Under the pieces are notes generated by a model. That model was given only the letters and a program-made list of their open reading frames with translations. It was not told where the DNA came from and did not search any database. Positions 8,007 through 63,241 of a stretch of DNA of 64,000 nucleotides are shown piece after piece. The stretch spans positions 2,790,001 through 2,854,000 of the forward strand of contig NZ_JAIHLP010000002.1 in assembly GCF_020009625.1 (NCBI RefSeq), read 5' to 3'. The stretch comes from Leifsonia poae (GTDB lineage: Bacteria > Actinomycetota > Actinomycetes > Actinomycetales > Microbacteriaceae). The translations under genes and the position numbers were made by a program. Each line of letters opens with the position of its first letter. Position 1 is the stretch's first letter.

Positions 8007-8111
8007 GAGGGTCTCCTGCGGGAAGGCGCGGGGGCGCCGGTCGGGTTGACGGGGCAAACCTAGCGGGGGAGTCGCGGTGTGCGCTCGTTCGATGACCGAA
8101 TGTTTCTTCGC

Positions 8112-32148: not shown

Positions 32149-35100
32149 ATGTTGAAACGAATGGGCAGAGCGTGGCACGTCGCCACCGCCGCCATCGTGG
32201 GTGCCGGCCTCGCCGCCGGCCCCATCGCCGCGCTCCCCGCGCAGGCGAGTGCCGATGCCACCGGCGTCGTCATCAATGAGGCGTATCTCTCCGGTGGAAG
32301 CGCCGGAGCCGCATACAAGAACAAGTTCGTGGAGCTGTACAACCCGGGCGACGCGGCCGTGCCGCTGTCGGGCTGGTCGCTCCAGTACCGTCCGGCAACG
32401 CAGACCGGTGCCTCCAGCACGGTCATCGCACTCACGGGAACCATCGCCGCCCACGGCTACTACCTCGTGCAGGGCGGCTCGAACGGTGCCAACGGGGCCG
32501 CGCTTCCCACCGCCGACCTCGTCGCCGCCGGTCTGAACCCGAGCGGAACCACAGGGACGCTGCTGCTGGCCTCCACGGCCTCGGCCGTCACTGCACCGGT
32601 CGGATCGGTCACCGGCTTGGAGACCGCGGCCGGCATCGTCGACCTGCTCGGCTACGGCACCTCGAACACGTTCGAGACCGCCGTCGCGACCGCGCCGCTG
32701 AGCAACGCTGACGTGAAGTCCATCACGCGCACCGACTTCAGCGACACCGACGACAACCACACCGACTTCGCGCTCAGCCCCACGATCACCCCGCAGGGCG
32801 CGGCCGGAACGACCGACCCCACCGACCCGGGCACCGACCCCGGAACACCGACCGACCCGGGCACCGGTGGTGACCCCAGCCCACCCGCCGACAGCATCCC
32901 CATCTCCGAGATCCAGGGCGCCACCGACACCAGCCCCAAGGCGGGCACCACCGTCACCACGAGCGGAATCGTGACCGCGGTCTACGCGACCGGCGGCTTC
33001 AACGGCTTCTACATCCAGACCCCGAACACCGGCGGCGACATCGACCTGGCGACGCACACCGCATCCGACGCGCTCTACATCTACGGCAGCAGTGTCGCCG
33101 CGGCCGTCACAGCCGGCGACTACGTGCAGGTCACGGGCGCGGTCAGCGAGTTCAACGGCCTCACCGAGCTGACCCCCGCGAAGACCGCCGATGTGGTCAA
33201 GCTCGACGCGAAGACCGTCACCGCCCCCACCCCCGCTGCTGTGGCCCTTCCCGCCACGGATGCACAGCGCGAAAGCCTCGAAGGCATGCTGATCGCCCCG
33301 CAGGGCGCGTTCACCGTCACCGACACGTACTCGACCAACCAGTACGGCGAGATCGGGCTCGCGAGCGGATCGAAGCCGCTCGTGCAGGCCACTGAGACCG
33401 CCCGCCCCGGAACGCCGGAGTACACGGCCGCCCTCGCCGCCAACGCCGCTCGCGCCGTCATCCTCGACGACGGCGCCTCGACCAACTTCCTGAGCGCCGC
33501 CAACAAGTCGAAGCCGCTGCCGTACCTCACACCGACCTCCTCGATCCGGGTCGGCGCCGCCGTGACGTTCACGCGTCCGGTCATCCTCGACTACCGGAAC
33601 GACGCGTGGAAGTTCCAGCCGACCACCGAGCTCACCGCGGCGAACGCCGCGACGGTGCAGCCGGCGACCTTCGCCCAGACCCGTCCCGCCGCCCCGGCCA
33701 ATGTCGGCGGCGACCTTCGGCTCGCCACATTCAATGTGCTCAACTACTTCCCGACAACGGGCGACCAGCTGAGCGGATGCACATACTACAAAGACCGTGA
33801 CGGCAACAACATCACGGTGAACACCGGATGCGACGCCCGCGGCGCCGCCGACGCCGCCAACCTGAAGCGCCAGCAAGACAAGATCGTCGCGGCGATCAAC
33901 GGCCTCACCGCCGACGTCGTCTCGCTCGAAGAGATCGAGAACTCGGCCCGGTTCGGCAAGAACCGCGACGATGCGCTCTCGAAGCTGGTCGCGGCCCTCA
34001 ACACGGCAGCCGGTACCGCGGTGTGGGCGTTCGTGCCGTCACCGGCGAGCCTTCCCGCCTCGGAAGACGTCATCCGCACCGCCTTCATCTACAAGAAGGC
34101 GAACGCGGCACCGGTCGGTGCAGCGCGCATCCTCGTCGGAAACACCGCGTTCGACAACGCCCGCCAACCGCTGGCGCAGGCGTTCAAGAAGGTCGGTGTG
34201 GCCGACTCGGCCGCGTTCATCGCCATCGTGAACCACTTCAAGTCGAAAGGCTCCGGCACGGGGGCCGACGCCGACCAGGGCGACGGGCAGGGCGCATCCA
34301 ACGCCTCCCGGGTCGCGCAGGCCAACGCGCTCGTCTCCTTCGCCGACTCTCTGAAGGCGTCGCTCGGCCTCGACAAGGTGCTGCTGATCGGTGACTTCAA
34401 CTCATACCTGAAAGAAGACCCGATCAAGGTGCTCACCGACGCCGGCTACGTCGACCAGGTGACCAGTCGCACGACCAAGTACACGTATGCGTTCGGCGGC
34501 ACCGTCGGCTCGCTCGACCACGTTCTCGCCTCCCCGGCAGCCAACGCGGCGATCGCGGGCGCCGATGTGTGGAACATCAACTCGGGCGAGTCGATCGCCT
34601 ACGAGTACAGCCGCTACAACTACAACGCGACGAACTTCTACGCCGCGGGACCGTACCGTTCCAGCGACCACGACCCGATCGTCGTCGGTCTCCACCTCGG
34701 CTCGGCGCCCACCACCGTCAACCTGCTGAACATCAACGACTTCCACGGTCGCATCGACAGCAACACGGTGAAGTTCGCCGGCACCGTCGAGAAGCTGCGG
34801 GCCGCGGCCGGTGAGGACAACACGCTGTTCCTCTCCGACGGCGACAACATCGGCGCCTCGCTGTTCGCCTCGGCGACGGCGGGCGACCTCCCCACCATCG
34901 AGGTGCTGAACGCGCTCGGCCTGAAGACGAGCGCGGTGGGCAACCACGAGTTCGACAAGGGACTCAGCGACCTCACCGGCCGGGTGACGGGTGCGGCCGA
35001 CTTCAGCTACCTCGGCGCCAATGTCTACAAGAAGGGCACGACCACTCCGGCGCTCCCCGAGTACGCGGTGTTCACCGTGAACGGTGTGCGGGTCGGCGTC

Positions 35101-37128
35101 ATCGGCGCCGTCACCGAGGAGACCCCGGCTCTCGTCTCCCCGGGCGGTATCGGTGCCCTCCAGTTCGGCGACCCCGTCGTCGCCGTCAACCGGGTCGCGG
35201 CCCAGCTGACCGATGGTGACCCGTCGAACGGCGAAGCGGATGTCCTCGTCGCCGAGTACCACGAGGGGGCCGGTTCCGGCGCGCCCGACGGTGCCACGCT
35301 GGCGAAGGAGATCGCCGCCGGCGGCGCCTTCGCCGACATCGTGACGAAGACCTCCCCGAAGGTCGCAGCGATCTTCACCGGCCACACCCACAAGCAGTAC
35401 GCGTGGGATGCGCCCGTTCCGGGCGACGCCACCACGACGCGACCCGTCGTTCAGACCGGCAATTACGGCGAGAACATCGGGCAGGTCGTGCTGACGGTGG
35501 ACGGCGACACCAAGAAGGTCACCGGCTACACCTCCGGCAATGTCGCGCGCACGACCGACGCCGACACGGCGCTCGTCTCGGCCTACCCGCGGGTCGCCCA
35601 GGTGAAGACGATCGTCGACAAGGCGCTCGCCGATGCCGCGATCATCGGCAATCAGCCGGTCGGCACGGTCACCGCGGACATCACCACGGCGTTCCTCGGT
35701 GCGAACCGCGACGACCGGATGTCCGAGTCGACTCTCGGCAACCTCGTGGCCGATTCGCTGCTGTCGACCCTGTCGCCGGCCGAGCTGGGCGGAGCCGAGA
35801 TCGGCGTCGTCAACCCGGGCGGCCTGAGGGACGAGCTCCTGAAGGGCGCCGACGGCACCGTGACCTACGCCCAGGCCAACGCGGTGCTGCCGTTCGTGAA
35901 CAACCTCTGGACGACGAGCCTCACCGGCGCGCAGTTCACGTCCGCTCTCGAGCAGCAGTGGCAGCGCAACGCCGACGGCACCGTGCCGTCGCGGGCCTTC
36001 CTCAACCTCGGTCTGTCGAAGAACGTCAGCTACACCTACGACGCGACGCGACCCGAGGGGAACCGCATCACGAGCATCCTGGTGAACGGCGCGCCCGTCG
36101 ATCCGACCCGGTCGTACCGCATCGGATCCTTCAGCTTCCTCCTCCAGGGCGGAGACAACTTCCGCGCCTTCAGCACAGGGACGAAGACGAAGGATTCCGG
36201 CCTCATCGACCGCGACGCGTGGATCAGCTACATCACGAAGAACAGTCCACTGTCGCCGAGCTTCGAGCGCCGCGGAGTCGCCGTCTCGGGTGTTCCGACC
36301 GGAACGCTCGCCCGCGGTCAGCAGTTGACCTTCCAGGTCTCGAAGCTGAACCTCACCTCGTTGGGCACCCCGACCACCACCAAGCTGGCGCTCACCTGGC
36401 CCGGCAGCACGGCGGCGATCGCCGACGTGCCGGTGGATGCAACCGGGACGGCGACCGTGTCGCTCACGGTCCCGGCGGATGCGGCCGGCACGAGCACCCT
36501 CGTGCTGCGGGCCGCTGAGTCGGGCACGACCGTGCGGGTTCCGCTCAGGGTCGAGGCCGCGCCCGGGGGCAACCCCGAGCCGACCACCCCGCCGACCGCC
36601 GCCGACGAGTCGGCGTTCACCGGCGCGCTCGAGGGCCTTGCCTCGGTGGAAGACAAGGTCTTCCACCCGGGCGATGCGGTCACGGTGACCGTCGGAAGGC
36701 ACCTCGCGGGTAAGTGGGTCTCGGTGTGGGTGCACTCCACGCCGCGGAACCTGGGCGGCTGGCTGCACGTTCCGGCCGACGGCACGCTGCGCGTGACGCT
36801 CCCGGCAGACCTTCCGGCCGGCGCCCATCGCATCGTGGTGCTCGATGCGAGCGGCGCGGTGCTCGGCTGGACGTCGATCACGGTCGCCGCGGCCACCGGC
36901 CCCGGAACCGGTGGCGGCACCGGTGGCGGCACCGGCGGAACTGGCGGCACCGGGGGCACCGGGGGCACCGGATCGTCTGCGGCCGGTACGGGCGACGGAC
37001 TGTTCCAGCAGGGGCTCGCCAACACGGGCTCCGATCTGGCCCCGGCGTTCGGTCTCGCGGTGCTTGCGCTCCTGGCCGGCCTCGCCGCGGTCGTGCTCTT
37101 CGGGCGCCGGCGCGCTTCGCGGGCCTGA
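32149..37128 (+). CDS. cell-wall-anchored ExeM/NucH nuclease fused to 5'-nucleotidase
   Basis: 1659 residues. Signal peptide, lamin-tail domain (about 40-170), OB-type domain (about 245-380), endonuclease/exonuclease/phosphatase domain (about 515-870: LATFNVLNYF, SLEEIEN, LIGDFNSY, SSDHDPIVV), metallophosphatase (about 875-1120: INDFHGRID, GNHEFDKG, GHTHKQY), 5'-nucleotidase C domain and Ig-like region. It ends LANTG, a hydrophobic helix and RRRASRA, an LAxTG sortase signal. It should degrade extracellular DNA to nucleotides and release phosphate at the cell surface. AGGAGA precedes ATG 32149. Confidence 0.93.
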   Translation: MLKRMGRAWHVATAAIVGAGLAAGPIAALPAQASADATGVVINEAYLSGGSAGAAYKNKFVELYNPGDAAVPLSGWSLQYRPATQTGASSTVIALTGTIAAHGYYLVQGGSNGANGAALPTADLVAAGLNPSGTTGTLLLASTASAVTAPVGSVTGLETAAGIVDLLGYGTSNTFETAVATAPLSNADVKSITRTDFSDTDDNHTDFALSPTITPQGAAGTTDPTDPGTDPGTPTDPGTGGDPSPPADSIPISEIQGATDTSPKAGTTVTTSGIVTAVYATGGFNGFYIQTPNTGGDIDLATHTASDALYIYGSSVAAAVTAGDYVQVTGAVSEFNGLTELTPAKTADVVKLDAKTVTAPTPAAVALPATDAQRESLEGMLIAPQGAFTVTDTYSTNQYGEIGLASGSKPLVQATETARPGTPEYTAALAANAARAVILDDGASTNFLSAANKSKPLPYLTPTSSIRVGAAVTFTRPVILDYRNDAWKFQPTTELTAANAATVQPATFAQTRPAAPANVGGDLRLATFNVLNYFPTTGDQLSGCTYYKDRDGNNITVNTGCDARGAADAANLKRQQDKIVAAINGLTADVVSLEEIENSARFGKNRDDALSKLVAALNTAAGTAVWAFVPSPASLPASEDVIRTAFIYKKANAAPVGAARILVGNTAFDNARQPLAQAFKKVGVADSAAFIAIVNHFKSKGSGTGADADQGDGQGASNASRVAQANALVSFADSLKASLGLDKVLLIGDFNSYLKEDPIKVLTDAGYVDQVTSRTTKYTYAFGGTVGSLDHVLASPAANAAIAGADVWNINSGESIAYEYSRYNYNATNFYAAGPYRSSDHDPIVVGLHLGSAPTTVNLLNINDFHGRIDSNTVKFAGTVEKLRAAAGEDNTLFLSDGDNIGASLFASATAGDLPTIEVLNALGLKTSAVGNHEFDKGLSDLTGRVTGAADFSYLGANVYKKGTTTPALPEYAVFTVNGVRVGVIGAVTEETPALVSPGGIGALQFGDPVVAVNRVAAQLTDGDPSNGEADVLVAEYHEGAGSGAPDGATLAKEIAAGGAFADIVTKTSPKVAAIFTGHTHKQYAWDAPVPGDATTTRPVVQTGNYGENIGQVVLTVDGDTKKVTGYTSGNVARTTDADTALVSAYPRVAQVKTIVDKALADAAIIGNQPVGTVTADITTAFLGANRDDRMSESTLGNLVADSLLSTLSPAELGGAEIGVVNPGGLRDELLKGADGTVTYAQANAVLPFVNNLWTTSLTGAQFTSALEQQWQRNADGTVPSRAFLNLGLSKNVSYTYDATRPEGNRITSILVNGAPVDPTRSYRIGSFSFLLQGGDNFRAFSTGTKTKDSGLIDRDAWISYITKNSPLSPSFERRGVAVSGVPTGTLARGQQLTFQVSKLNLTSLGTPTTTKLALTWPGSTAAIADVPVDATGTATVSLTVPADAAGTSTLVLRAAESGTTVRVPLRVEAAPGGNPEPTTPPTAADESAFTGALEGLASVEDKVFHPGDAVTVTVGRHLAGKWVSVWVHSTPRNLGGWLHVPADGTLRVTLPADLPAGAHRIVVLDASGAVLGWTSITVAAATGPGTGGGTGGGTGGTGGTGGTGGTGSSAAGTGDGLFQQGLANTGSDLAPAFGLAVLALLAGLAAVVLFGRRRASRA

Positions 37129-37394: not shown

Positions 37395-39920
37395 GTGGAC
37401 CGGCGCCGGCTCCGGCATGTCCTCGATGACGTCGCGGCCCGCGGCGGTGCGGTGGTGACCGTCACGGCCGGGGCCGGGTGGGGGAAGACGACCCTCCTCG
37501 AACAGTGGAGTGCGGGTGCGCGACGATCGTATCCCGTCGTCAGCGTCTCGGCCTCCGATCCCGAGGATTCGCACCGTTCGTTCGCCGCAGCGCTCGATCG
37601 CGCGTTCCACCGCGATGCCGGGGGAGCCCCGGGCTCGCAGTCGGGACCGTTGGCGATCGTGGTGGACGATGTGCATCTCCTCGAGTCGCACGCCGATCGG
37701 GAGACGCTGGAACGATTGGCGGTGTCGCTGGGTCGGCACGAGACGCTCATCCTGTGCGGTCGTTCGCAGCCGCTCAGTGCGAACGTCGTCGCCGCCGGCC
37801 GGCGCCTCACCCTTCTCGGATCCTCCGACCTCGCCCTGACCTTCCGGGAGGTCGACGACCTTCTGCGCCTGGCCGGCGTCGCGCTCGATCCGGCCGACCT
37901 CGGCGACCTGGTCGGCCACACGCAGGGGTGGGCGTTCTCACTCGCCCTGTTCCGGCACGTCGTCGCCGATGCGGCCGACCCGAGTGCCGAGGTCGCCCGA
38001 TTCACCCGGGACTCCGGCCTGCTCGCCGACTACCTCGTCGGGGCGCTGCTGGAATCGCTTCCGACCGGAACCCAAAGTGCGCTGCTCGCGCTCGCGGTCG
38101 TGGACGAGGTCAGCATCCCGCTCGCCGTCGAGCTCACGGGGATGCCCGACATCGGCACGGTGCTCGAACGTCTCTGCGTCGCGACCTCGCTGCTGCGACG
38201 GAGGCCGGGGGCTGCCGACGGCCCGCACTACGACTACATCGATCTGCTGCGCGAGCATCTCGTCGCCGAACTCCGCCGCCGCGACGCGGCGCGGGTGCTG
38301 GAACTGCACGAGACCGCCGCAGGGTGGTTCGTCGAGAACGGGGAGTTCCGGCTCGGGCTCGAGCAGGCCGTGCGCGCCGAATCGGTCGAGCTCGTGCATC
38401 GGTTGCTGCGGCTGCACGGGCTCGGGCTCGTCTTCAGCGGTGACACCCCGACCGTGCACCAGGCGCTGGCGATGCTCGAGGACCGCGGCATCCTCACCCA
38501 CACCACCGGAATGCTGGCCGTGCTGCTCAACGCCCCGTACCTGCTCGACTCCGTGCGGATCGACCATTTCGTGCGCCTGGCTGGGGAGGCGATCGAGAGC
38601 AACACGGCGACCTCCCGTGTGCTCTACCTGGCCGTGCTCGTCATGCGCGCCCACACCGAGCCCGAGATCCGCGAACGGATGCAGCAGCTCGCCGACACCG
38701 TCGCCGAGGCCGGTTCGTCGCCCGACGACTCGGCGAGCGCGGTCAATACTCTCGACGCGAGAATTTTCGCCGAGGCGGCGCGGGCGCTCGGCCTGCTGCG
38801 ACTCGGCGAACCGGGTGAGTGCGTACAGGTCGCGGTCAGCGCAGCCGGGAGCGCCGACGCCACGGGGCGGCCCTGGCTGACGATGATGCTGCTCGACATC
38901 GCCGCCAACGCCGCCGCGCAGCAGGGTGCGTGGGCCTTGCAGCTCTCGCTCGAGAACCGTGTCGCCGCGCACACGCGCGAGGGGGCGACGCCACACGATC
39001 TCGTCTCCGCCCACTCCCAGTTCTCCGTCGCCTCAGCCGCGTACCAGGCTTGCGAACCGTATAGTGCCGCCCGGCTCACCGACATCGTGCAGACCGAGTG
39101 GCGTTCCCTCGACCCGGGGCTCTCGCTGCCTCCTCGGGTGCTGCAGGTGCTGTTCCAGCTCGACAGCGAACCAAACCCGCGCCCCCTCTACGACGAGATG
39201 GAGCGGCTGCTCGGCATCAGCCTGACGAAGCATCCCCGCACTCTCGCCGCCGGCGCCTTCCGGTACATCGACCTCACCCTGCGGTATCGGGGGAGGGCGA
39301 GTGCGCGCGAGGCCGTCGGCACACTGAGTGGAGTGCTCGGCGAGGCGGCGTTCGAGGTGCAGCTGGCGAACGCCCAGATCCGGGCCGGGAGCGCCCTGCA
39401 GGAGGCGGAGGAGGAGACGCTGCTGGCCGCACTCGTCGGACATCCGTTGGCCTGGCACGGCAGCAGTCTGGTCTTCGGCTGGACCCTGCTGGCCGGATGG
39501 GCGGCGGAGTCCGGCCGGGAGGAGCAGACGCTGTCGTGGCTGGGCAACGCCCTCGCGCTGGCCGAACGGATGAACGCCAGGCGGCCGTTCCTCGCCGCAG
39601 GAGGAGAAGCCGCTCGCCTCGTCGAAGAACGACTCGGCGCGTTCGGCGCGAGCGAAGGTTTCGCTGCATCGGTCGTGGAGGCCGCCCGGCGGGTGCTGCC
39701 CCCCGCCCCGGCGATCACGCTCACCCCGGTGCTTCTCACCCCGCGCGAGCACGACCTGCTGCGCGAGCTGCCCCTGCACCAGAGTGTCATCGACATCGCC
39801 CGCAAGCACAGTGTGAGCCCCAACACGGTCAAAACCCACCTGCGCTCCATTTACCAGAAACTCGGTGCCGGCGACCGCTCCTCCGCCGTCGAGAACGCGC
39901 GCAAGGTCGGCCTGCTCTAG
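37395..39920 (+). CDS. LuxR-family (LAL/MalT-like) regulator
   Basis: 841 residues. N-terminal STAND ATPase (Walker A AGAGWGKTT at about 25-33, Walker B-like LAIVVDDVHLLES), a long helical repeat region and a C-terminal LuxR HTH (LTPREHDLLREL to SVSPNTVKTHLRSIYQKLGA). GTG 37395 is the first in-frame start, but family-like residues (LPRSHTDLV) continue upstream of it, so the true N terminus or a small frame error is uncertain. It precedes the adhesin/SipW locus by 83 bases, same strand, and may control it. Confidence 0.88.
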   Translation: MDRRRLRHVLDDVAARGGAVVTVTAGAGWGKTTLLEQWSAGARRSYPVVSVSASDPEDSHRSFAAALDRAFHRDAGGAPGSQSGPLAIVVDDVHLLESHADRETLERLAVSLGRHETLILCGRSQPLSANVVAAGRRLTLLGSSDLALTFREVDDLLRLAGVALDPADLGDLVGHTQGWAFSLALFRHVVADAADPSAEVARFTRDSGLLADYLVGALLESLPTGTQSALLALAVVDEVSIPLAVELTGMPDIGTVLERLCVATSLLRRRPGAADGPHYDYIDLLREHLVAELRRRDAARVLELHETAAGWFVENGEFRLGLEQAVRAESVELVHRLLRLHGLGLVFSGDTPTVHQALAMLEDRGILTHTTGMLAVLLNAPYLLDSVRIDHFVRLAGEAIESNTATSRVLYLAVLVMRAHTEPEIRERMQQLADTVAEAGSSPDDSASAVNTLDARIFAEAARALGLLRLGEPGECVQVAVSAAGSADATGRPWLTMMLLDIAANAAAQQGAWALQLSLENRVAAHTREGATPHDLVSAHSQFSVASAAYQACEPYSAARLTDIVQTEWRSLDPGLSLPPRVLQVLFQLDSEPNPRPLYDEMERLLGISLTKHPRTLAAGAFRYIDLTLRYRGRASAREAVGTLSGVLGEAAFEVQLANAQIRAGSALQEAEEETLLAALVGHPLAWHGSSLVFGWTLLAGWAAESGREEQTLSWLGNALALAERMNARRPFLAAGGEAARLVEERLGAFGASEGFAASVVEAARRVLPPAPAITLTPVLLTPREHDLLRELPLHQSVIDIARKHSVSPNTVKTHLRSIYQKLGAGDRSSAVENARKVGLL

Positions 39921-40003: not shown

Positions 40004-43000
40004 ATGTTCGTCGGTCTCGTCCGCCACTCGACTGCTCGTCACCGTGCGGGGGGTGAACATCCCAGGTTCGTCCGGTCTGCCGCGTTCGGAACCGCTCTCG
40101 CGCTCGCGCTGGTCGGCACCTCCGCCCTCTCGGCCCAGGCCGCGCCCGGCGACACGTCGAACGCCACAGGCCAGTACCTGAGCGGTTCGCTGCTCGGGCT
40201 CGATGCCGGCCTCCTGGTCTCCCTGGGTGGGGAGAGTGCGACGAGCGCGGGCTCCGCCGACCAGACCAAAGCGAACAATCTGAATGTGGGCGTGCTCGGC
40301 GCGGTGAACCTCACAGCGCCGGGCGGAATCCAGCTGCCGATCAACCTCGGCAACGTCGGCGTCGTCGAGCAGTACGCCTCGGCGCTGCAGAACGGATCGT
40401 CGGTCGGCGCCTCCGGGCTCACGTCCGCCAGTGGCGACATCGGCACGGGAATCACGCCGGCCCCCGGGGTGGCCCCCGGCCCGCTGAGCCTGAATCTCGC
40501 GCAAGCGGTCGGCTCCCTCGGGTTGCCGCCGGCCACGATCAACCAGATCGCCCAGCTCAGCCTCTCCGCCGGTGTCTTGGCCGCGCGGGCGGCGCAGACC
40601 GCTCCCGGAGTGCCTGCCGGATCCTATTCGCTCGCTAATGTCGGGCTCTCGTTCCAGAGCCCGACCCTCGCCGGGCTGACCACGGCCATCAACAACCAGG
40701 TGACGACCGTGCAGAACACGGTCAACGCGCTCGCCGGCCCGAGCGGGACCATCGCCGGTGCGCTGAACCTCCTGAACCTCGGCGGCCTCACGAGCACGAC
40801 CGTGTCGGTGTCGGCCAACGATCTTCATGCCGCCGTGGCGCCATTGCTCGCCGGGCCGATCACCAGCGCGGCGTACCCGGGCGTCAGTATCGATCTGTCC
40901 ACCGGAACGGTGACGATCGATCTCTCCGCCCTGACCGCGCTCGAAGGTCTCGGCGCGAACACCGATCTCCTGACCGACGCCGTCATCACGGCGATCGGCA
41001 CCCGGATCTCGGGTGTCGTAGGCTCGCTGCTCACCCAGGTGCAGAACACGCTCACCTCTGTGACGAACGCGATCACAGTCTCGGCCACGACGCAAGTGCT
41101 CGGCTTGTCTGTGCTGACCATCAACGAGACGATCGCCCAGCTTCTCGCCGGCAACACCTCCGGCATCACCCTGCTCGGTGTCGGTCTGGGACTCCCCGGT
41201 GGCCTCACGACGGTCGTCTCGGCGCTCACGTCGCCGCTCGGCGCGCTCGGAACGGCGATCTCGGCGCTCGGCCCGGCGGTCATCGCGCCGGTGACGGGCA
41301 CCCTCATCCCGGCGATCAAACCGGTGCTCAACGGTGCGTTGACGCTGACGGTCAACAACCAGTCCACGGCGGCCGGCGTCTTCAGCGAGACCGCGCTGCG
41401 CGCGACGGTTCTGCCCGCTGCGGCCGCTCTTCAGCTCAACGTCGCGAGCGCGACGGTGGGGGTCAACGCCCTGGCCGTCGCTCCAGTCGTCACCGGTCTG
41501 ACGCCGACGCATGGCCCGGCTGCGGGTGGCACTGCGGTGACGATCACGGGCACCGGGTTCACCGGGGCCACGGGTGTGACGTTCGGTGGCACGGCCGGCA
41601 CTTCGTTCACGGTCGTGAATGACACGACGATCACGGTCACGACCCCGGCCCACGCTGCCGGTGCGGCGGATGTGGTGGTGCAGTCGCCGAACGGCGATTC
41701 GGCTCCCGGCACGTTCACCTTCGACGCAGCGCCGGCGGTCACGAGCGTGAGCCCGACGCACGGCCCTGCGGCGGGTGGCACGGTGGTCACGATCACCGGC
41801 ACCGGGTTCACCGGCGCGACGGGGGTCACCTTCGGTGGAACGGCCGGTACGACGTTCACCGTGGTGAACGACACCTCCATCACCGTCACGACGCCCGCGC
41901 ACACACCCGGCCCCGTCGATGTGGTGGTCCAGTCGCCGAGCGGCGACTCTGCACCGGGCACGTTCACGTTCGACGCTTCGCCGACGGCCCCGGTCATCAC
42001 GGGCTTGACACCGACGCATGGCCCGGCTGCGGGTGGCACTGCGGTGACGATCACGGGCACCGGGTTCACCGGGGCCACGGGTGTGACGTTCGGTGGCACG
42101 GCCGGTACGACGTTCACGGTCGTGAATGACACGACGATCACGGTCACGACCCCGGCTCATGCGGCGGGCGCGGCGGATGTGGTGGTGCAGTCGCCGAACG
42201 GCGATTCGGCTCCCGGCACGTTCACCTTCGACGCAGCGCCGGCCCCCGCCATCACCGGTCTCACGCCGACGAGCGGTCCTGCGATCGGCGGAACCGTGGT
42301 GACGATCACGGGCACCGGTTTCACCGGTGCGACCGGCGCCACGTTCGACGGGACCAGCGGCACGACGTTCACCGTGGTGAACGACACGACGATCACGGTC
42401 ACGAGCCCGGCGCACGCGCCCGGACCGGTGGACGTCGTCGTGCAGTCGCCGAACGGCGATTCGGCTCCCGGCACCTTCACCTACGACGCGGCGGCCCCGA
42501 CCATCACGGGCCTGAGCCCGACACACGGTCCGGCCGCGGGCGGAACGGTGGTGACGATCACGGGCACCGGCTTCACCGGGACCGTGGGCGTCACCTTCGG
42601 GGGCACCGCCGCCGCATCCTTCACCGTCGTGAACGACACGACGATCACCGCGACGACGCCGGCGCACGCGGCCGGCGCGACCGACGTGGTCGTCACGACG
42701 CCGAACGGAGCCTCGAACGCGGGCGCCTTCACCTTCGACCCGGCCCCGCCTGCGATCACGACGATCGTGCCCGACCACGGCCCGGAGACCGGTGGAACGG
42801 TGGTGACGATCACGGGCACCGGGTTCACCGGGGCCACAGGCGTGACCTTCGGCGGCACCCCGGGCACGGGCTTCACCGTCGTGAACGACACGACGATCAC
42901 GGTCACGACCCCGGCCCATGCGGCCGGTGCGGCGGACGTGGTGGTGCAGTCACCGAACGGCGATTCTGCTCCCGGCACCTTCACCTTCGACGTGGTCGTG

Positions 43001-43717
43001 CCCCCGGTCATCACGGGGCTGACGCCCGTTCATGGGCCGGAGGCCGGCGGCACAGTGGTGACGATCACCGGAACCGGCTTCACCGGCGCCACCGGCGTGC
43101 TGTTCGGAGTGAGTGCCCCGGTGGCGCTGTTCCGGCTCGCGACGCCGAGTCTCGTCCTGCCGACGGGCAGTGTGCCGGGCACCCATTTCGCCGTGGTGAA
43201 CGACACGACGATCACGGTCACCTCACCGGCTCACGCACCGGGACCCGTCGACGTGACGGTGCTCTCGCCGAAGGGCGACTCGGCTCCCGGCACCTTCGTC
43301 TTCGACCCGTCGACGACGATCGACACCGTGGATCCGGGCTCGGGCCCTGCGGCGGGGGGCACCACCGTCACGATCAGCGGCCACTGCTTCACGGGAGCCA
43401 CCGGCGTGCTCTTCGGCACCACCCCGGCCACGAGCTTCACCGTGGTGGACGACACGACGATCACCGCCGTGAGTCCGGCCGGAACGGGCACCATCGGGAT
43501 CACCGTGGTCGGCGCCCCCGCCTGTGGCACCGGCACCCTGCCGGACGCTTTCGCCTACACCACGTCGACCGCTCCCGCCGGGGCATCCGGAACGTCGGGC
43601 GGATTGGCGGCGACCGGATCGGATCTCGGCCCCTCGCTGGTGCTCGGCGGCTTCGCCGTGCTCCTGCTGATCGCCGGAGTCGGGGCGGTCGCGCGCCGCA
43701 CGAAGAGCAACGCCTGA
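40004..43717 (+). CDS. IPT/TIG-repeat surface adhesin, LAxTG-anchored
   Basis: 1237 residues. Signal peptide ending SALSAQAAPG, a choice-of-anchor G-like domain (about 48-480, beginning GQYLSGSLLGLDAGLLVSLG), then eight IPT/TIG Ig-like repeats of about 85 residues (each with GPAAGGT.VTITGTGFTGATGV), and a C terminus LAATG, membrane helix, basic tail. Such proteins are wall-anchored adhesins or scaffold proteins. Start ATG 40004 gives the signal peptide; the ribosome binding site is weak. It heads the SipW cluster. Confidence 0.85.
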   Translation: MFVGLVRHSTARHRAGGEHPRFVRSAAFGTALALALVGTSALSAQAAPGDTSNATGQYLSGSLLGLDAGLLVSLGGESATSAGSADQTKANNLNVGVLGAVNLTAPGGIQLPINLGNVGVVEQYASALQNGSSVGASGLTSASGDIGTGITPAPGVAPGPLSLNLAQAVGSLGLPPATINQIAQLSLSAGVLAARAAQTAPGVPAGSYSLANVGLSFQSPTLAGLTTAINNQVTTVQNTVNALAGPSGTIAGALNLLNLGGLTSTTVSVSANDLHAAVAPLLAGPITSAAYPGVSIDLSTGTVTIDLSALTALEGLGANTDLLTDAVITAIGTRISGVVGSLLTQVQNTLTSVTNAITVSATTQVLGLSVLTINETIAQLLAGNTSGITLLGVGLGLPGGLTTVVSALTSPLGALGTAISALGPAVIAPVTGTLIPAIKPVLNGALTLTVNNQSTAAGVFSETALRATVLPAAAALQLNVASATVGVNALAVAPVVTGLTPTHGPAAGGTAVTITGTGFTGATGVTFGGTAGTSFTVVNDTTITVTTPAHAAGAADVVVQSPNGDSAPGTFTFDAAPAVTSVSPTHGPAAGGTVVTITGTGFTGATGVTFGGTAGTTFTVVNDTSITVTTPAHTPGPVDVVVQSPSGDSAPGTFTFDASPTAPVITGLTPTHGPAAGGTAVTITGTGFTGATGVTFGGTAGTTFTVVNDTTITVTTPAHAAGAADVVVQSPNGDSAPGTFTFDAAPAPAITGLTPTSGPAIGGTVVTITGTGFTGATGATFDGTSGTTFTVVNDTTITVTSPAHAPGPVDVVVQSPNGDSAPGTFTYDAAAPTITGLSPTHGPAAGGTVVTITGTGFTGTVGVTFGGTAAASFTVVNDTTITATTPAHAAGATDVVVTTPNGASNAGAFTFDPAPPAITTIVPDHGPETGGTVVTITGTGFTGATGVTFGGTPGTGFTVVNDTTITVTTPAHAAGAADVVVQSPNGDSAPGTFTFDVVVPPVITGLTPVHGPEAGGTVVTITGTGFTGATGVLFGVSAPVALFRLATPSLVLPTGSVPGTHFAVVNDTTITVTSPAHAPGPVDVTVLSPKGDSAPGTFVFDPSTTIDTVDPGSGPAAGGTTVTISGHCFTGATGVLFGTTPATSFTVVDDTTITAVSPAGTGTIGITVVGAPACGTGTLPDAFAYTTSTAPAGASGTSGGLAATGSDLGPSLVLGGFAVLLLIAGVGAVARRTKSNA
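41490..43530 (+). repeat. eight tandem ~255-bp IPT-encoding repeats
   Basis: Units begin near 41490, 41733, 41994, 42249, 42500, 42752, 43007 and 43315. Units 1 and 3 are nearly identical in DNA for over 200 bases. Unit 7 has an insertion of about 50 bases; unit 8 is the most diverged. Sequence homogeneity implies recent duplication or gene conversion. Confidence 0.85.
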
Positions 43718-43761
43718 TCGGGCCCCTGCCCGAACGGTTCGTCCAAACAGAAGGAGCTGTC

Positions 43762-44397
43762 ATGACTGACACGGACGCGGTGCCCGCCGCCGGGCCGACC
43801 CGGTCGCGCAAACGCAGGACGATGTCGCGCAAGGTGAAGGCGATCCTCGCGGGAGGACTCGTGCTCGGTGTCGGGGCTGCCGTCACCCTGGCCGCCTGGA
43901 ACGACTCGGAGTTCGCGCAGGGCACGTTCACCGCGGGCACGTTCAACCTCGTCGGCAGCACGGACGGCACGACCTTCACCGACCACGCGACGGCCGGTAC
44001 CGCTGCGACGCTCGGGTTCACGGTCAATGCCGCTTCGCTCTCCCCGACGGCGGTGACCGCCGCACCGTTCGCCGTCGAACTCGCGGCCAACACGACGAAC
44101 AACGCCGTGGTCACGGTCTCAAGCGCGGGCACGACCGGAACGGTCACCCAGATCACCTACGAGCTGCTGCAGACGACGACATTCGGCTGCACGGCCGCGA
44201 CGACCGGAACAGATCTCGTCCCCGCGGGAACCGCCCTCACGACCGTGCCGGGGTCGGTGACGTTCCCGCTGGCCCAGGGCACGGGGGGAGCAGCCGGCGC
44301 GCCGGTGTTCCTCTGCTTCAAGATGACGGCGGGGGCCGGTCTCGTCCAAGGGCAGACCGGTTCGGCGACCTGGCAGTTCACCGCGGCATCCCAGTAG
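43762..44397 (+). CDS. SipW-dependent secreted protein 1
   Basis: 211 residues. SipW-type signal peptide (SRKVKAILAGGLVLGVGAAV, then TLAAWNDSEFAQGTF) placed after a 20-residue basic N terminus, followed by a beta-rich camelysin/TasA-like domain with two Cys (FGCTA and FLCFK). Homologues of this class build biofilm fibres in bacilli. Ribosome binding site AAGGAG before the ATG. Paralogue of the next gene, 8 bases apart; both precede the SipW-type peptidase. Confidence 0.88.
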   Translation: MTDTDAVPAAGPTRSRKRRTMSRKVKAILAGGLVLGVGAAVTLAAWNDSEFAQGTFTAGTFNLVGSTDGTTFTDHATAGTAATLGFTVNAASLSPTAVTAAPFAVELAANTTNNAVVTVSSAGTTGTVTQITYELLQTTTFGCTAATTGTDLVPAGTALTTVPGSVTFPLAQGTGGAAGAPVFLCFKMTAGAGLVQGQTGSATWQFTAASQ

Positions 44398-44405
44398 GCG
44401 AAGCC

Positions 44406-45044
44406 GTGTCTCAGGTGCGACCGCACCGCAGCCGGAGTGTTCGGGCCCTCCGGCTGCGGGCGGTCCTGGCCGGCGGGCTGGTCCTCGGCGTCGGAGCGAC
44501 CGTCACCCTCGCGAGCTGGACCGACAACGAGTTCGCCACCGGCACTTTCTCGTCGTCGGTGTTCGACACCCAGTCGAGCGTCAACGGCGCCGCCTACGCG
44601 GACAACGCGACCGCCCCCGGAGCCACCTTCACCCTCGCCGGGCCGTTCGCGCCGGGCGTCTCGAGCTACTTCCCCGTCCTCATCCGCACCAAGGCGAACT
44701 CCGTGGCCGGGACTGTCGTGCTGAACGGTGCCACGCTGGGCGGCACGGATGCGGCGACCCTGGGCGCCGCGCTCGTGTACCGGGTCGTGCTCACCACCGG
44801 AACCTGCTCGGCCGCCGCGTTCACCGGATCGCCCTCGTTCGTCGTGGGCGCCGCCGGCGTCACGCGAGCGCTCACCGCCGGTCAGGAAAGCGGGGTGAAC
44901 ACGGCGCTCGCCGCTGCGACCGGCGCGGCGCCGGGCGCGGCGACCGGGTATTGCTTCGAGGTGACCCTGCCCGCCTCCGCGCCCAACTCCCTGCAGGGCA
45001 AGACCGCTACCGCGACCTGGCAGTTCGCCGCCACCAGCAGCTAG
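44406..45044 (+). CDS. SipW-dependent secreted protein 2
   Basis: 212 residues. Same type of leader (VLAGGLVLGVGATVTLASWT, then DNEFATGTFSSSVFD), beta-rich domain with two Cys (GTCSAA and GYCFEV). GTG start 8 bases after the previous stop. Mature part differs from paralogue 1, suggesting two fibre subunits or a subunit and its anchor. Confidence 0.86.
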   Translation: MSQVRPHRSRSVRALRLRAVLAGGLVLGVGATVTLASWTDNEFATGTFSSSVFDTQSSVNGAAYADNATAPGATFTLAGPFAPGVSSYFPVLIRTKANSVAGTVVLNGATLGGTDAATLGAALVYRVVLTTGTCSAAAFTGSPSFVVGAAGVTRALTAGQESGVNTALAAATGAAPGAATGYCFEVTLPASAPNSLQGKTATATWQFAATSS

Positions 45045-45053
45045 GAGCACCGA

Positions 45054-46496
45054 ATGTCGAACGATCTCCGCCCACGGGCGACACCGGCGCGTGCCGACCC
45101 GGCCACCTCCTCCCGTCTCGCCTCGAAGGCGGGCAATGTGCTCCTGACCGTCGCGGCGATCGGCGGCGTGCTGTGCATCGTCGCGGTCATCGCCGCGACT
45201 GTGTTCCACGTGAGCCTCATCCTGTTCAAGACCGGATCGATGAGCCCCACGATCCCGACGGGCTCGGTGGCGGTGGTGCGCCAGGTGCCCGCTGCCGACG
45301 TCACGGTCGGCGACGTCGTCACGGTCGACCGCCCCGGCGAGCTCCCGATCACCCACCGCATCGTCGCGAGTGCTCCGGCCGCGCACGGGCTGACGTCGTT
45401 GACCCTGCGCGGGGATGCGAATCCGCAGAACGACCCGCAGCCCTACCTGGTCGAGCATGTGCGCCTCGTGATCGCGAGCGTGCCCGGCGGCGCCCGGGTG
45501 ATCGTGTTCGCCTCTAACCCGGTGGTGCTCGGCGCCGTGACCGTCGGCGTTTCGCTGCTGGTCGGCTGGGCTTTCTGGCCGCGCCGTCGCGACGACGGCC
45601 CAGGCGGGGGCGCCGGCGGCGCCCCAAGCGACGAAACGTCGGGCGATGACCGCGACGACGGCCGTTCCGGCGATCGGGGGCCGGCCGATGCGACACGGTC
45701 ACGCGGCCGACACGCGGCCGGTGGGTCGACTGATGCCGTATCCGGTGCGGCCGCATCCCGTGCTGGCACCCGGAACGCCGACATCGCGACCGGCCCGGCG
45801 CTGCCCCGGGTCTTCGGGCTGATCGCGCTCGCGGTCTTCCTGCCCCTCGCCGCCGCTCTCAGCGCCGCCGGTGTCGCGCAGGCGGCGACGGCCGAGACCG
45901 TCGTCGCGAGCAGGTACCTCACGCTCACGTCCCTCGGCGATCCGGAGCAGCTGACCGATCTGACGCCGGGGCGGCCGGCGCTCTGGGTGGTCGGTGTCGC
46001 CGCGCATCCGCCCGAGCCGGCCCCCGTGAGCATCGGGTTGAGTGCCACGGGTGCACTGGCCGGTGTGGGGGGTCTGCGGGTGGCCGTCGTCGAGTGCAGC
46101 GAGCGCTGGGCGAACACGGTGTGCCCGGGCCGGCGGCTGCCCGTGCTCGACGCTCAGCCGCTCTCCGCCGTGCTCACCGGTGCGGGCACCGACGGCGTGC
46201 GCACCCTCACGGTGATGCCGTCGACCGAGCAGCGCTGGCTTGCCGTGACCGTGACGTTGCCGGCTGGATGGGCGCCCGGCAGTAGCGCGGATCTGCGCGT
46301 GCACGCGTGGGGAGCGGGCGACGACGCAGCGACCGCGGGGGCGCCGGCCGGGCTGGCCGACACCGGCACCCGCGTTCCCGGTCTCGCGGTCGGTCTGGCG
46401 GCAGGCGCCCTCCTGCTGGGGATCGCGGCCGCGGCCGCGGAGCGCCGACGGCGCCGTCGCGCCGACCGCGTGCGGGAGAGCAGGGCGGCGCAATGA
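45054..46496 (+). CDS. SipW-type signal peptidase fused to LAxTG exodomain
   Basis: 480 residues. N-terminal half: membrane anchor, catalytic Ser62 in TGSMSPTIPTGS, His101 in PITHRIV (the Lys of bacterial SPase I is replaced by His, as in SipW/ER enzymes) and an RGDANPQNDPQ box. A second membrane segment and a disordered Ser/Gly/Arg linker follow. The C-terminal half (about 255-480) starts with a secretory hydrophobic segment ending AQAATAE, has a beta-rich domain, then LADTG, a helix and a basic tail, a sortase-like signal. Its likely substrates are the two preceding genes. Confidence 0.85.
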   Translation: MSNDLRPRATPARADPATSSRLASKAGNVLLTVAAIGGVLCIVAVIAATVFHVSLILFKTGSMSPTIPTGSVAVVRQVPAADVTVGDVVTVDRPGELPITHRIVASAPAAHGLTSLTLRGDANPQNDPQPYLVEHVRLVIASVPGGARVIVFASNPVVLGAVTVGVSLLVGWAFWPRRRDDGPGGGAGGAPSDETSGDDRDDGRSGDRGPADATRSRGRHAAGGSTDAVSGAAASRAGTRNADIATGPALPRVFGLIALAVFLPLAAALSAAGVAQAATAETVVASRYLTLTSLGDPEQLTDLTPGRPALWVVGVAAHPPEPAPVSIGLSATGALAGVGGLRVAVVECSERWANTVCPGRRLPVLDAQPLSAVLTGAGTDGVRTLTVMPSTEQRWLAVTVTLPAGWAPGSSADLRVHAWGAGDDAATAGAPAGLADTGTRVPGLAVGLAAGALLLGIAAAAAERRRRRRADRVRESRAAQ

Positions 46497-46960
46497 AGCG
46501 TGTGGCCGTCGCGCTGGGGGCCGTCGGCTTGCTCCTGCTGAGCCTCACCGCCCGGCCGGCGCCGACGCAGGCCGCCTGGACCCGCCCGGGATTCAGCACA
46601 GCGACGGCGGCCTCCGGTGTGCTCAACCCGGTGCCCACCCTCAGCTGCGGAGCGGCGTCCGGCCTTCTCGCCGTCAGCATCCCGGTCTCCTGGACCGCGC
46701 CGCCGACGACGGGGAATGGCGTCGCCCCGACCGGATACTTGGTGACCTACAGCGGAACGGCCGGCTCGGGTTCGACGACCACGACGGCGCCGACGACCTC
46801 GGTGGGCATTCCGGGTTCGGTGCTCACGATCGCCGGCTCGATGACGGTCACGGTCTACGCCACCTACGGCAACTGGGTTTCGCCGGCCTCGCTGCAGACG
46901 CGCACCATCACGACCACCCTCGGTGCCCTCGGCATCATCATCGGCTGGACCTGCGGCTGA
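46493..46960 (+). CDS. small secreted fibronectin-like protein
   Basis: 155 residues. Signal peptide (VALGAVGLLLLSLTARPAP, cleavage near TQA-AWT) and a beta-rich domain resembling a fibronectin type III module (VPTLSCGAASGLLAVSIPVS to GYLVTYSGTAG). Two Cys (LSCGA and WTCG at the C terminus) may form a disulfide. ATGA overlap with the SipW gene shows it belongs to this operon. Family assignment is tentative. Confidence 0.75.
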   Translation: MKRVAVALGAVGLLLLSLTARPAPTQAAWTRPGFSTATAASGVLNPVPTLSCGAASGLLAVSIPVSWTAPPTTGNGVAPTGYLVTYSGTAGSGSTTTTAPTTSVGIPGSVLTIAGSMTVTVYATYGNWVSPASLQTRTITTTLGALGIIIGWTCG

Positions 46961-46972
46961 TCCCGGCGACCG

Positions 46973-47935
46973 TCAGGCGCTTTCGGCTGCGCAGGCGAAC
47001 GTCTTGCGATAGCTCGTCGGGGGGACGCCGACCTCCTGGTCGAAATGGTGACGGAACAGCGTGGCGCTCCCGAACCCGCACCGCCGGGCCACTTCATCGA
47101 TGGGTAGATCAGTCGTCTCCAGCAGCAGCCGGGCTTGAAGGATGCGCTGCCGGGTGAGCCACTGCATCGGCGGCACCCCGGTCTCTGCGACGAACCGGCG
47201 GGCGAAGCTGCGGGTCGACATGCGAGTGCGCTGTGCGAGCCCTGCGACCGTGTGCGTCTCGTCGAGCCGTTCGCTCAGGTCGTCGAGAAGCGCGCTGAAC
47301 GTGTCGTCGGTGCATTCGGAGACCGGCCGTTCGATGTACTGCCGCTGCCCGCCGTCGCGCTGCGGGGGCACGACCATGTTGCGGGCGATCGTCGTGGCGA
47401 CTGCGCTGCCGAGCTCGCGACGCACCAGGTGAAGGCTCGCATCCACACCGGCCACGGTTCCTGCGCTGGTGACGAGGTCGCCGTCATCGACGAAGAGCAC
47501 ATCCGGGTCCACCCGGGATTTCGGGTAGCGGGCGGCCAGCTCATCCGCATACCGCCAGTGGGTGGTGCACGCGCGGCCGTCGAGCAGGCCGGCGGCGCCC
47601 AGCACGAAGGCGCCCGAGCACACGCTGAGCAGAATCGCTCCGCGGTCGCTCGCCCGTCGCAACGCCGCGAGCAGTTCTGTCGGATAGTCGTCGCGGATGC
47701 GCGCGGCCGGCACGGCGATCAGGTCGGCGTCGTCCATCGCCTCCAGACCGAACGGCGGGGTCACGGTCACCCCCGTCGGATTGGCGAGCGGGACTCCCGT
47801 TTCGACGCCGCAGACGCGGAAGTCGAACCGGGGGAGCGCCGCATAACTGCGGTCCACTCCGAACACCTCGCAGACCACGCCGAACTCAAACATCGCGAAG
47901 TCGTCGATGAGGGGCACCGCCACGGAGTGCAACAT
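46973..47935 (-). CDS. GlxA family AraC-type regulator
   Basis: 320 residues. N-terminal DJ-1/PfpI-like domain (about 1-190, SVCSGAFVLGAAGLLDGRAC with the nucleophile-position Cys) and C-terminal AraC HTH (about 215-315: LAQRTRMSTRSFARRFVAET and IDEVARRCGFGSATLFRHHF). Ligand unknown. Leaderless-type start; a palindrome lies just upstream. It converges with the SipW cluster. Confidence 0.92.
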   Translation of the reverse strand: MLHSVAVPLIDDFAMFEFGVVCEVFGVDRSYAALPRFDFRVCGVETGVPLANPTGVTVTPPFGLEAMDDADLIAVPAARIRDDYPTELLAALRRASDRGAILLSVCSGAFVLGAAGLLDGRACTTHWRYADELAARYPKSRVDPDVLFVDDGDLVTSAGTVAGVDASLHLVRRELGSAVATTIARNMVVPPQRDGGQRQYIERPVSECTDDTFSALLDDLSERLDETHTVAGLAQRTRMSTRSFARRFVAETGVPPMQWLTRQRILQARLLLETTDLPIDEVARRCGFGSATLFRHHFDQEVGVPPTSYRKTFACAAESA

Positions 47936-59908: not shown

Positions 59909-60226
59909 ATGTCACAGCACCACAAGAACCAGAAGTGGAGTACGCACAGCCCGAAGCTGCGCAAGCTCATTGAGCCGATGCTCCCGGCTCAGTGCCTGAA
60001 CTGTCCTCACCCGGTCACGCCCGAGGACAAGTGGCAGGTTGGCCACCGTCGTGACGCCGCGCTCGGTGGCGAACCCACCATCGAGAACGCGGGCCCGACG
60101 CACGCATGGTGCCCGGCCTGCCGGCGGCGCTGCAACCAGCGAGCCGGCGGCCAGCTCGGCGCGCGCATCCGCACCGCGAACAACGTCAGCCGATCCCGAG
60201 CGCAGAAAGATATCCGCTCATGGTGA
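59909..60226 (+). CDS. HNH-like zinc-binding protein
   Basis: 105 residues. CLNCPHPVT zinc pair, WQVGHRRDAALGGEPTIENAGP, HAWCPACRRRCNQRAGG: the H/N/H positions and two Cys pairs fit a small phage HNH endonuclease, which is often encoded just before terminase. Its stop overlaps the terminase ATG. Confidence 0.7.
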   Translation: MSQHHKNQKWSTHSPKLRKLIEPMLPAQCLNCPHPVTPEDKWQVGHRRDAALGGEPTIENAGPTHAWCPACRRRCNQRAGGQLGARIRTANNVSRSRAQKDIRSW

Positions 60227-61932
60227 CGGCGACGACGGTCGCGGCCCCGACTTCCTTTGAGAATCGCGTCGGAACCCCCGCCATAGGCAGTACGGAATTC
60301 TCTCTAAATCTGTGGAGTGCGGTGAGAAACCGCGGGATCAAGCCGACGTTCACCGGGCGTCTGTCGGAGGACGAGGAACTCCGCCGGGAGTTCCTTGCGG
60401 GGTCTCGTCGGATGGGCTACGAGCTGGTGGACCTGGACGACCGGGAGCACATCGCCGAGCTGAAAGCGATGACGCCGCCCCGCTACCCGATCCAGCCGCA
60501 GCAGCTCTGGATGGTAGACGCGCTCAACGCCGAGGACTACGACACGTTCACGGTCGAGGTAATGCGGCGAGCGTCCAAGACCACCACGATATTCTGCTGG
60601 CTCGTGGGCCGGTGCGAAAGCCGGCCCGGCTATGAGGTCACCTTCTCGGCGCAGTCCGGCGTGAAGTCGTCAGCGCGTTTGCGCGAGTGGAAGCTCCGCC
60701 TCGACGCGATCAATCCGCCCGATGACCTCGACCTTCCGCCGTGGCTGCGCAATCGGCCCCGAACCACGAAGCGCGCTGAGCGCGCGCTCGCCCTGTTCGA
60801 CCTTGACATCACGACCGAGGCCGAACATCTGACCGCTGGCCGCGGGTTCAAGGTCATGATGGGGGAGGTCGGCAAGGGCATCTACTGGGACAACGGGTCC
60901 AAGTTCCTCGTGCTCAAGCCGTCGTCCGACGCCTACCGGGGCGAAGCGGGTGACATCTCGTGGTTGGACGAAGCCCAGGAACTCGACCCCGAGGAGGGAG
61001 CCGACCTGCTCGCCGGTCTCGCCCCGCTCCAGGACACCAAGGAGAACGCGGCCACCGTGATCAGCGGCACGGCCGGCGAGGCACGCGTTGGCCCGTTCTG
61101 GGAGGTCGTCGCCAAGCTCCGGGCCGGTGACCCAGATGTCGGTGGTGTGGACTACTGCGCATCCGACTCCACACCCTGGGAAATCATCGAGGACGAAGAC
61201 CAAGCGATCGCACTGCTAGTGACTCTGCACCCGGGCATTGGGACGCTCACGACCGAGGAGAAGATGCGGAAGAACTGGCGCAAGCTCGACAAGCCCAAGT
61301 GGGCGCGCGAATATCTGTCACTCTGGCCGGAGTCGTTTGGGACCACCGCCGTCAACGCTCTGCTGTGGGAAGACGCAGCCCTGGCCCGCAAGAAGGCGAA
61401 GCCCGACCGTGTTGCGTTCGGGCTCGACATCCGCCCCGGCGGGTTCTCGGCCGCGATCGTCGTCGCCTGGCGCGACTCCCGCGGCGTCGCCTACGTCGAG
61501 GTCGTTGAGCACCGGCAAAGTACGTCGTGGATTCCCGAGCGCATGCAGGAGCTGACCCGCACGTATCGCGGCTCAACCATCGCGTTTGATGACATCTCGG
61601 AGGGCAAGGCCACCGCCACCGAGGCCGACCGGCTCAGCCCGAAACCACGACTGCGGATGCAGACCTATCGCGAGCACGCCGCCGGATGCGTCCAGTTCCT
61701 CCGCGACCTCGAACGCGGCAAGCTCAAACACTCCGGACAGGTCTCCCTAGACACCGCAGTTGCCGTCGCCGTGAAGCGCGACGTGCGCGGATCGCAAGGC
61801 GTCTGGATGTGGGGCGCACCCGTCGCCGGCGGCGACATCACCCCGCTCGTCGCCGCGACACGCGCGCTGCGCAATTGGGACCAATATTTCGCGCGAGGAA
61901 CAGGAAGCACAGGAGTGGTGATCGCAGCATGA
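60220..61932 (+). CDS. phage terminase large subunit
   Basis: 570 residues. ATPase half with an unusual Walker A-like EVMRRASKTTTIFCW (Ser in place of the usual Gly before Lys) and Walker B ISWLDEAQEL; nuclease half with FGLDIRPGG and IAFDDISEG acidic positions. It packages DNA into proheads. ATG 60220 overlaps the HNH stop. Confidence 0.85.
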   Translation: MVTATTVAAPTSFENRVGTPAIGSTEFSLNLWSAVRNRGIKPTFTGRLSEDEELRREFLAGSRRMGYELVDLDDREHIAELKAMTPPRYPIQPQQLWMVDALNAEDYDTFTVEVMRRASKTTTIFCWLVGRCESRPGYEVTFSAQSGVKSSARLREWKLRLDAINPPDDLDLPPWLRNRPRTTKRAERALALFDLDITTEAEHLTAGRGFKVMMGEVGKGIYWDNGSKFLVLKPSSDAYRGEAGDISWLDEAQELDPEEGADLLAGLAPLQDTKENAATVISGTAGEARVGPFWEVVAKLRAGDPDVGGVDYCASDSTPWEIIEDEDQAIALLVTLHPGIGTLTTEEKMRKNWRKLDKPKWAREYLSLWPESFGTTAVNALLWEDAALARKKAKPDRVAFGLDIRPGGFSAAIVVAWRDSRGVAYVEVVEHRQSTSWIPERMQELTRTYRGSTIAFDDISEGKATATEADRLSPKPRLRMQTYREHAAGCVQFLRDLERGKLKHSGQVSLDTAVAVAVKRDVRGSQGVWMWGAPVAGGDITPLVAATRALRNWDQYFARGTGSTGVVIAA

Positions 61933-62135: not shown

Positions 62136-62166
62136 ATGTTCCTATGCCTCCCCGAGCATCTAATGC

Positions 62167-63237: not shown

Positions 63238-63241
63238 ACCC

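Follow-up and report, generated by a model that had tools for sequence, protein, structure and literature searches.

In the literature covered here, TasA-type fibres are described from bacilli and archaea. According to passages of two papers on the Bacillus subtilis tapA-sipW-tasA operon (PMC9674648, PMC10151520), TapA begins with the same residues as TasA and is presumed to occupy a filament end only, and a Bacillus cereus system is characterised as sortase-independent in the passages of PMC13082335. We analysed a window (i.e., the whole stretch of 64,000 nucleotides, contig NZ_JAIHLP010000002.1, positions 2,790,001 to 2,854,000) from the 4.14 Mb, five-contig genome of Leifsonia poae, in which four successive genes encode two predicted SipW substrates (SUB1 and SUB2), a signal peptidase of the SipW class that continues into a wall-sorting protein (domain c) and a secreted protein of 155 amino acids (P155), downstream of a large adhesin and a LAL-type regulator.

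We consider it likely that this operon builds a surface fibre of the TasA/camelysin kind that is held together by donor strands and that a sortase ties to the wall by way of the SipW-linked protein, the adhesin being an accessory. The initial annotation had proposed a surface-fibre or matrix unit of five same-strand genes from position 43762 onwards; there are four, or five if the adhesin is counted. Its other observations on the arrangement stand, i.e., the short or overlapping junctions (gaps of 44, 17, 9 and –4 bases from the adhesin through P155, preceded by 83 bases between regulator and adhesin) and the wall-anchored IPT adhesin and LAL regulator upstream, both of which are borne out by family matches and coordinates. 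As to the fibre itself, the parts co-occur and the predicted fold of SUB1 resembles donor-strand fibre subunits including TasA, and the adhesin turns out to be accessory.

The conservation of the operon was examined by searching for the peptidase in 150 genomes of the family, 89 of which gave matches. Eighteen loci beyond the window's own (L002–L019) match at an E-value of 7.3e-41 or better, and stretches were taken around these, around the SipW locus of genome G043 and around the genome's own second SipW. By gene calls, SUB1, SUB2, SipW and P155 are successive in 15 of the 18, and also in L047 if the search-placed SipW is added (gene calling missed SipW genes that the peptidase search places in L047, L049 and L145); the exceptions are L043, where P155 is fused to SipW, and L033, without SUB2. 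The flanks mostly differ between these loci. A scan of genome contigs with a SUB1 profile yielded 153 relatives, the best 80 loci of which were analysed (hereafter the named loci). Rather than being scattered, the possibility that the initial annotation had set against a unit, the genes co-occur in the order SUB1-SUB2-SipW-P155, with or without c, in 70 of these 80 (32 with c fused, 23 with c separate, 14 without c, and one tandem duplicate with c fused), while the other ten miss one or two pieces, three of them being cut by contig ends. The 80 loci are partly non-independent, as L109 and L111 have the same proteins, L067 and L090 come from one genome, and several repeat earlier genomes. Among the ten incomplete loci, L074 and L078 have a P155-like gene that is encoded upstream, on the opposite strand. 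The operon occurs in Microbacteriaceae, Micrococcaceae, Dermabacteraceae and Nakamurellaceae, with hosts that include Leifsonia, Arthrobacter, Microbacterium and related genera; among named organisms, the proteins closest to the window's SUB1 are from Leifsonia (80–82% identical). Two variants of the layout were seen in passing: Glaciihabitans (L034/L079) carries two tandem copies of the SUB1-SUB2-SipW(c)-P155 set, and SUB1 and SUB2 read as one 388-amino-acid frame in a same-genus genome of 2.6 Mb (G174, L143:8084-9250).

The fused peptidase of the initial annotation could be confirmed, since it exceeds the cut-off of TIGR02228, the SipW/archaeal-ER-type signal peptidase I class (59.2 vs. 51.85 bits), although it stays below that of the Bacillus SipW equivalog NF046067 (33.4 vs. 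190 bits). Hydropathy places hydrophobic segments at residues 29–47, 157–175, 253–271 and 444–462, and the C-terminal part of the fusion has, in addition, its own signal-like helix and its own LADTG sorting signal, in which the last of these segments and a basic tail follow the motif. Of 101 rows of homologues, counted without deduplication, 92 show a strict three-motif Ser/His/Asp pattern; four further rows deviate only before GD, four carry SHR instead of THR, and one (L059) lacks the Ser motif. Ser62, His101 and Asp121 are the probable catalytic triad, by analogy with the S26B class. The L059 homologue (Arthrobacter alkaliphilus) reads GLMSP where 100 of the 101 rows have the Ser motif, and is perhaps inactive or affected by a sequence error. 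The genome has two sortase matches over the PF04203 cut-off (99 and 48.2 bits). It also encodes a second SipW-class peptidase (G000:C2:3626899-3627447, locus L049; TIGR02228, 99.5 bits), which has neighbours of its own (genes 7984-8571 and 8750-9334), one of them with a TIGR04089 "alternate-type signal peptide" (89.6 bits), and a LuxR-type regulator nearby on the opposite strand.

Domain c was modelled by AlphaFold2 with a pLDDT of 94.7 (from an alignment of 45 sequences, i.e., 32 references that passed the script and 13 set-aside ones added by hand), and its structural matches are MSCRAMM- or basal-pilin-like. A candidate role as a TasA-like subunit was rejected, as only a weak SUB2 profile match was obtained (probability 37.7%) and the fold is nearer to MSCRAMMs; a profile comparison of domain c with P155 gave no match. 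Among the 80 named loci, c is fused to SipW in 37, encoded by the next gene in 26 and not seen in 17. Its resemblance to MSCRAMM ligand-binding modules, together with the 14 changes in all by which a quick SipW tree (where L103, at a contig end, carries no c state) has to explain whether c is fused, separate or absent, and the difference between close relatives (separate in L065, fused in L066), would fit an independent wall protein or adhesin that became fused by loss of a stop codon, the fusion having no special function. We regard this as the most serious alternative, albeit an unlikely one, because c is fused or next in 63 of the 80 loci, with P155 following in 57 of those 63, and because c follows SipW in a second kind of locus as well (type II, SUB-SipW-c-adhesin; see below), which suggests that the two have a shared job. 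In one locus (L043:7262-8347), a P155-like protein is fused to SipW in place of domain c.

Both proteins that had been named as SipW substrates exceed the cut-off of the SipW-dependent signal peptide model TIGR04088 (38.7 bits for SUB1 and 29.1 bits for SUB2, cut-off 19), and they are the only proteins over it found in the genome; the same profile does not detect P155. SUB2 matches the SUB1 profile with an E-value of 2e-44 over 193 columns. Neither protein matches a Pfam family up to an E-value of 0.1, so that membership of the TasA/camelysin families was not found at the sequence level, and a profile of 19 SUB1 proteins matched none of the PDB chains up to an E-value of 10. At the predicted mature start, A, W, D, F and G are invariant in the 19 homologues (found through SipW). 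The AlphaFold2 model of SUB1, for which 71 of 73 references were aligned (two truncated ones being omitted), is a beta-sandwich with its first 15 residues disordered. The solved structures closest to this model are for the most part donor-strand pilins or filament subunits, which include TasA, and the best matches are FimG/FimA. A strict form of the mature-start motif is present in 177 of 193 SUB proteins, 43 of 89 P155 homologues, 4 of 25 adhesins and 1 of 35 separate c proteins, as well as in 30 of 1459 other proteins from the same stretches, and in none of 99 SipW proteins.

P155 has no Pfam or NCBIfam family over cut-off, and an fn3 match stays weak (16.2 bits for the window's copy against a cut-off of 25; three of 16 members at an E-value of up to 0.1). 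Common to sixteen P155 homologues are the mature start, a pair of cysteines and, close to the C-terminal end, a W-x-S. When profiles were compared, SUB1 (again the set found through SipW) and P155 matched over 44 columns at the signal end and mature start (E-value 5.7e-7). After trimming to the predicted mature starts, their alignment begins at residue 1, spans 20 columns and scores 40.4, a value reached in none of 60 column permutations (best 17.4), the SUB1 side of this permutation test (A4) having been gathered with a motif that covers residues 1–8. The AAWxDxE module of the P155 family is degenerate in the window's own copy (AAWTRPGF), so that the N-terminus in common with the major subunit, as known for TapA, is found at the level of the family. 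The initial annotation, which named this protein by its length, needs correction here: P155 belongs to a family with the N-terminal module of the substrates. A single-sequence P155 scan of the genome contigs returned 373 pattern matches, none encoding a relative; since most operons do contain a P155 homologue, the family is evidently too diverse for such a search. The module in common with the SUBs, and the likewise common first residues of TapA and TasA, suggest by analogy that P155 is a TapA-like end subunit (initiator or tip). In three Microbacterium loci (L114, L116 and L118), the P155 homologue is about 680 amino acids long, with a long, repeat-like C-terminal part that may consist of RCC1-type repeats and perhaps forms a beta-propeller displayed at the fibre end.

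The same data make it improbable that the SUBs and P155, although processed by SipW, are secreted to the wall or matrix as monomers and form no fibres: the best folds are mostly those of donor-strand pilus or filament subunits, the invariant residues cluster at a mature start that is disordered in the model, and it is only this mature start that the P155 family shares with SUB1.

The adhesin belongs to the choice-of-anchor G family (NF033766, 210.6 bits against a cut-off of 45), has eight stretches matching Pfam TIG/IPT PF01833 (335 bits) and ends as a sortase substrate, with LAATG, a hydrophobic segment (residues 1212–1230) and a basic tail. When 28 genomes of the genus were searched for SUB1 and choice-of-anchor G, SUB1 was strongly matched in 11 and the adhesin in ten, all among those 11, with neither in 17 (Fisher p 8e-7, not corrected for kinship); a marginal twelfth SUB1 match (G162, E-value 6e-4) lies in a different kind of locus (L150). 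The adhesin stands directly before SUB1 in seven of the ten (the window, L137–L141 and L143) and before it in pieces in L142. In G161, the two are on separate contigs; the adhesin is placed at the start of one, and SUB1, judged by the matching L053 record, seems to be close to the end of another. In G125, the adhesin is apart from the operon on a different contig, not near its end. The L142 genome (G152, same genus, 2.7 Mb) has opposite-strand genes between the adhesin pieces and no SipW gene called, and its system looks decayed.

Of 20 family genomes with SipW loci, 19 carry the adhesin family (20 genes). Ten of the 20 genes are no more than 10 kb away from a SipW match, against an expected number of about 0.3 (an expectation that counts all peptidase match rows and is hence high). 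Five of these ten near adhesins are in type II loci (L050 and L145–L148, the SipW of L145 being search-placed); they lack a sorting signal and have SUB-like N-termini (AAWNDTE, AAWLDAE, ASWLDAE, ASWGDSE and, in L147, ASWGGSE). Co-occurrence, proximity and these N-termini argue for a tie between the adhesin and SipW systems, through a predicted wall anchor in type I, the arrangement of the window, and probably through a donor strand in type II. The N-terminus of the type I adhesin (APGDTSNATG...) was tried as a donor strand and rejected: by eye, the AAWxD module of type II precedes this stretch, which thus belongs to the choice-of-anchor domain. As the adhesin is found in the stretch analysed for only 10 of the best 80 named loci (some stretches being cut by contig ends), it is accessory to the operon, and the initially proposed link between the fibre genes and an adhesin holds for the genus. 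That adhesin and operon have no function in common and became neighbours through coincidence or shared mobility is the least probable of the alternatives: it would suit those 10 of 80, the distant adhesin of G125 and a genome with SUB1 but no adhesin (G169), and it sits badly with the confinement of the adhesin to SUB1 genomes in the genus (0 of the 17 without strong SUB1) and with its excess near SipW in the family. The LAL regulator probably controls both adhesin and operon, judging from LAL homologues (40–44% identical over about 840 amino acids) directly before the adhesin in seven same-genus loci (L136–L141 and L143); in L135, just a short fragment of such a homologue is present.

The course of cleavage, polymerisation, subunit order, base function and regulation that we infer from the gene set, its conservation and co-occurrence, its motifs and its predicted folds would be as follows. 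SUB1 and SUB2 would be exported by Sec and then cleaved by the SipW-class peptidase, upon which the freed module (AAWxDxE..G.F.AG.F) would fill the open groove of the next subunit and so give a non-covalent donor-strand fibre. P155, in which a module related to theirs precedes a body of another kind, might for that reason donate a strand without accepting one, and would then start or end the fibre like TapA. Domain c would leave the cell by means of its own signal-like helix, be released by cleavage and be joined by sortase to peptidoglycan at LADTG, as a base holding the fibre or its initiator at the wall. The adhesin would be a partner with an anchor of its own, controlled by the LAL regulator. 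A bolder version, which we advance tentatively and hold at somewhat less than even, is that one polypeptide comprises both the maturing peptidase and the receiving wall anchor, which would couple maturation of the subunits to nucleation and anchoring at a single spot; the adhesin would join in type I via its sorting signal and in type II via a SipW-type donor strand.

Table 1. Features of the locus (window coordinates)
Feature	Position	Strand	Basis
LAL-type LuxR regulator (ATPase and LuxR helix-turn-helix)	37395..39920	+	Pfam GerE, E-value 1.4e-10
Choice-of-anchor G adhesin, 1237 amino acids, 8 IPT/TIG repeats	40004..43717	+	NF033766, PF01833
Adhesin sorting motif LAATG, then helix and basic tail	43604..43618	+	Sequence
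SUB1, predicted major fibre subunit, SipW-type signal peptide	43762..44397	+	TIGR04088; AlphaFold2 model with FimG/TasA-like matches
SUB1 predicted mature N-terminal donor-strand module AAWNDSEFAQGTFTAGTFNL	43891..43950	+	Invariant residues in homologues; related module in P155; model disorder
SUB2, SUB1 paralogue	44406 (GTG) or 44415 (start)..45044	+	TIGR04088; profile match to SUB1
SipW-class signal peptidase fused to wall-sorting protein	45054..46496	+	TIGR02228; hydropathy
Probable catalytic residues Ser62, His101, Asp121	45237-45239, 45354-45356, 45414-45416	+	Sequence; motif conservation
Domain c (residues 273-433 of the fusion), predicted to be exported and Ig-like, with two conserved cysteines	45870..46352	+	AlphaFold2; alignment of 45
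Fusion protein sorting motif LADTG	46353..46367	+	Sequence; LxxTG in relatives
P155, 155-amino-acid predicted secreted protein, weakly fn3-like body	46493..46960	+	N-terminal module common with SUB1; fn3 below cut-off

A scan for promoters and terminators between 37100 and 47200 found none (shuffled sequences gave 0.2 and 2.2). A convergent AraC/DJ-1 gene (46973-47935) lies outside the unit. Directly upstream of the LAL gene (32161-37128), a large secreted protein with stretches that look nuclease- or nucleotidase-like by eye ends in a LANTG sorting signal, making it another wall-anchored neighbour, and the right end of the window (60220-64000) has genes that look phage-derived, again by eye.

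A literature search for SipW operons in these actinobacteria found none in titles and abstract beginnings, within the limits of the library searched, and none of the papers listed by a wider search mentions "choice-of-anchor". NCBI models already recognise most of the parts singly; as far as the literature searched shows, what is new is the conserved set as a unit, the fusion of SipW to a sorting protein, P155 as a third component and the link to the adhesin. If the proposed reading is true, a donor-strand fibre and its sortase anchor are encoded in one operon, and anchoring, initiation and tip display become testable by single-gene deletions.

Compared with known systems, the best structural matches of the SUB1 model come from the type 1 pilus (FimG/FimA), although the unit has no chaperone or usher gene and belongs to Gram-positive secretion. 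The adhesin is a clear member of NF033766, far over its cut-off, and the association of this family with SipW loci was found here. The sipW-bsaABCRSD operon of Clostridium perfringens, as presented in passages of PMC7395162, is likewise a SipW-type operon with further secreted proteins and makes a SipW-dependent extracellular polymer; srtB is dispensable for these polymers there and no LPXTG is predicted in BsaA, whereas here a sorting signal lies inside the peptidase gene. The B. cereus sipW-tasA-capP(BC1280)-calY operon (PMC13082335) similarly combines two paralogous subunits, an accessory protein and SipW; its sortase independence contrasts with the sorting signals found here, and the passages on it do not mention a peptidase fusion. 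With B. subtilis tapA-sipW-tasA, as far as the passages cited above describe it, the locus has in common a SipW-type peptidase with substrates whose mature N-terminus reads A-F/W-N-D, a donor-strand-like subunit fold (predicted here) and a second protein sharing only the N-terminus (TapA or P155). The initial annotation was nevertheless right that gene set and fused peptidase do not match the bacillar operon in content or order: SUB1 and SUB2 are without a Pfam match and SUB1 without a solved-chain match, the order is SUB1-SUB2-SipW(-c)-P155 with SipW fused or linked to a sorting-signal protein, and a large adhesin and a LAL regulator adjoin.

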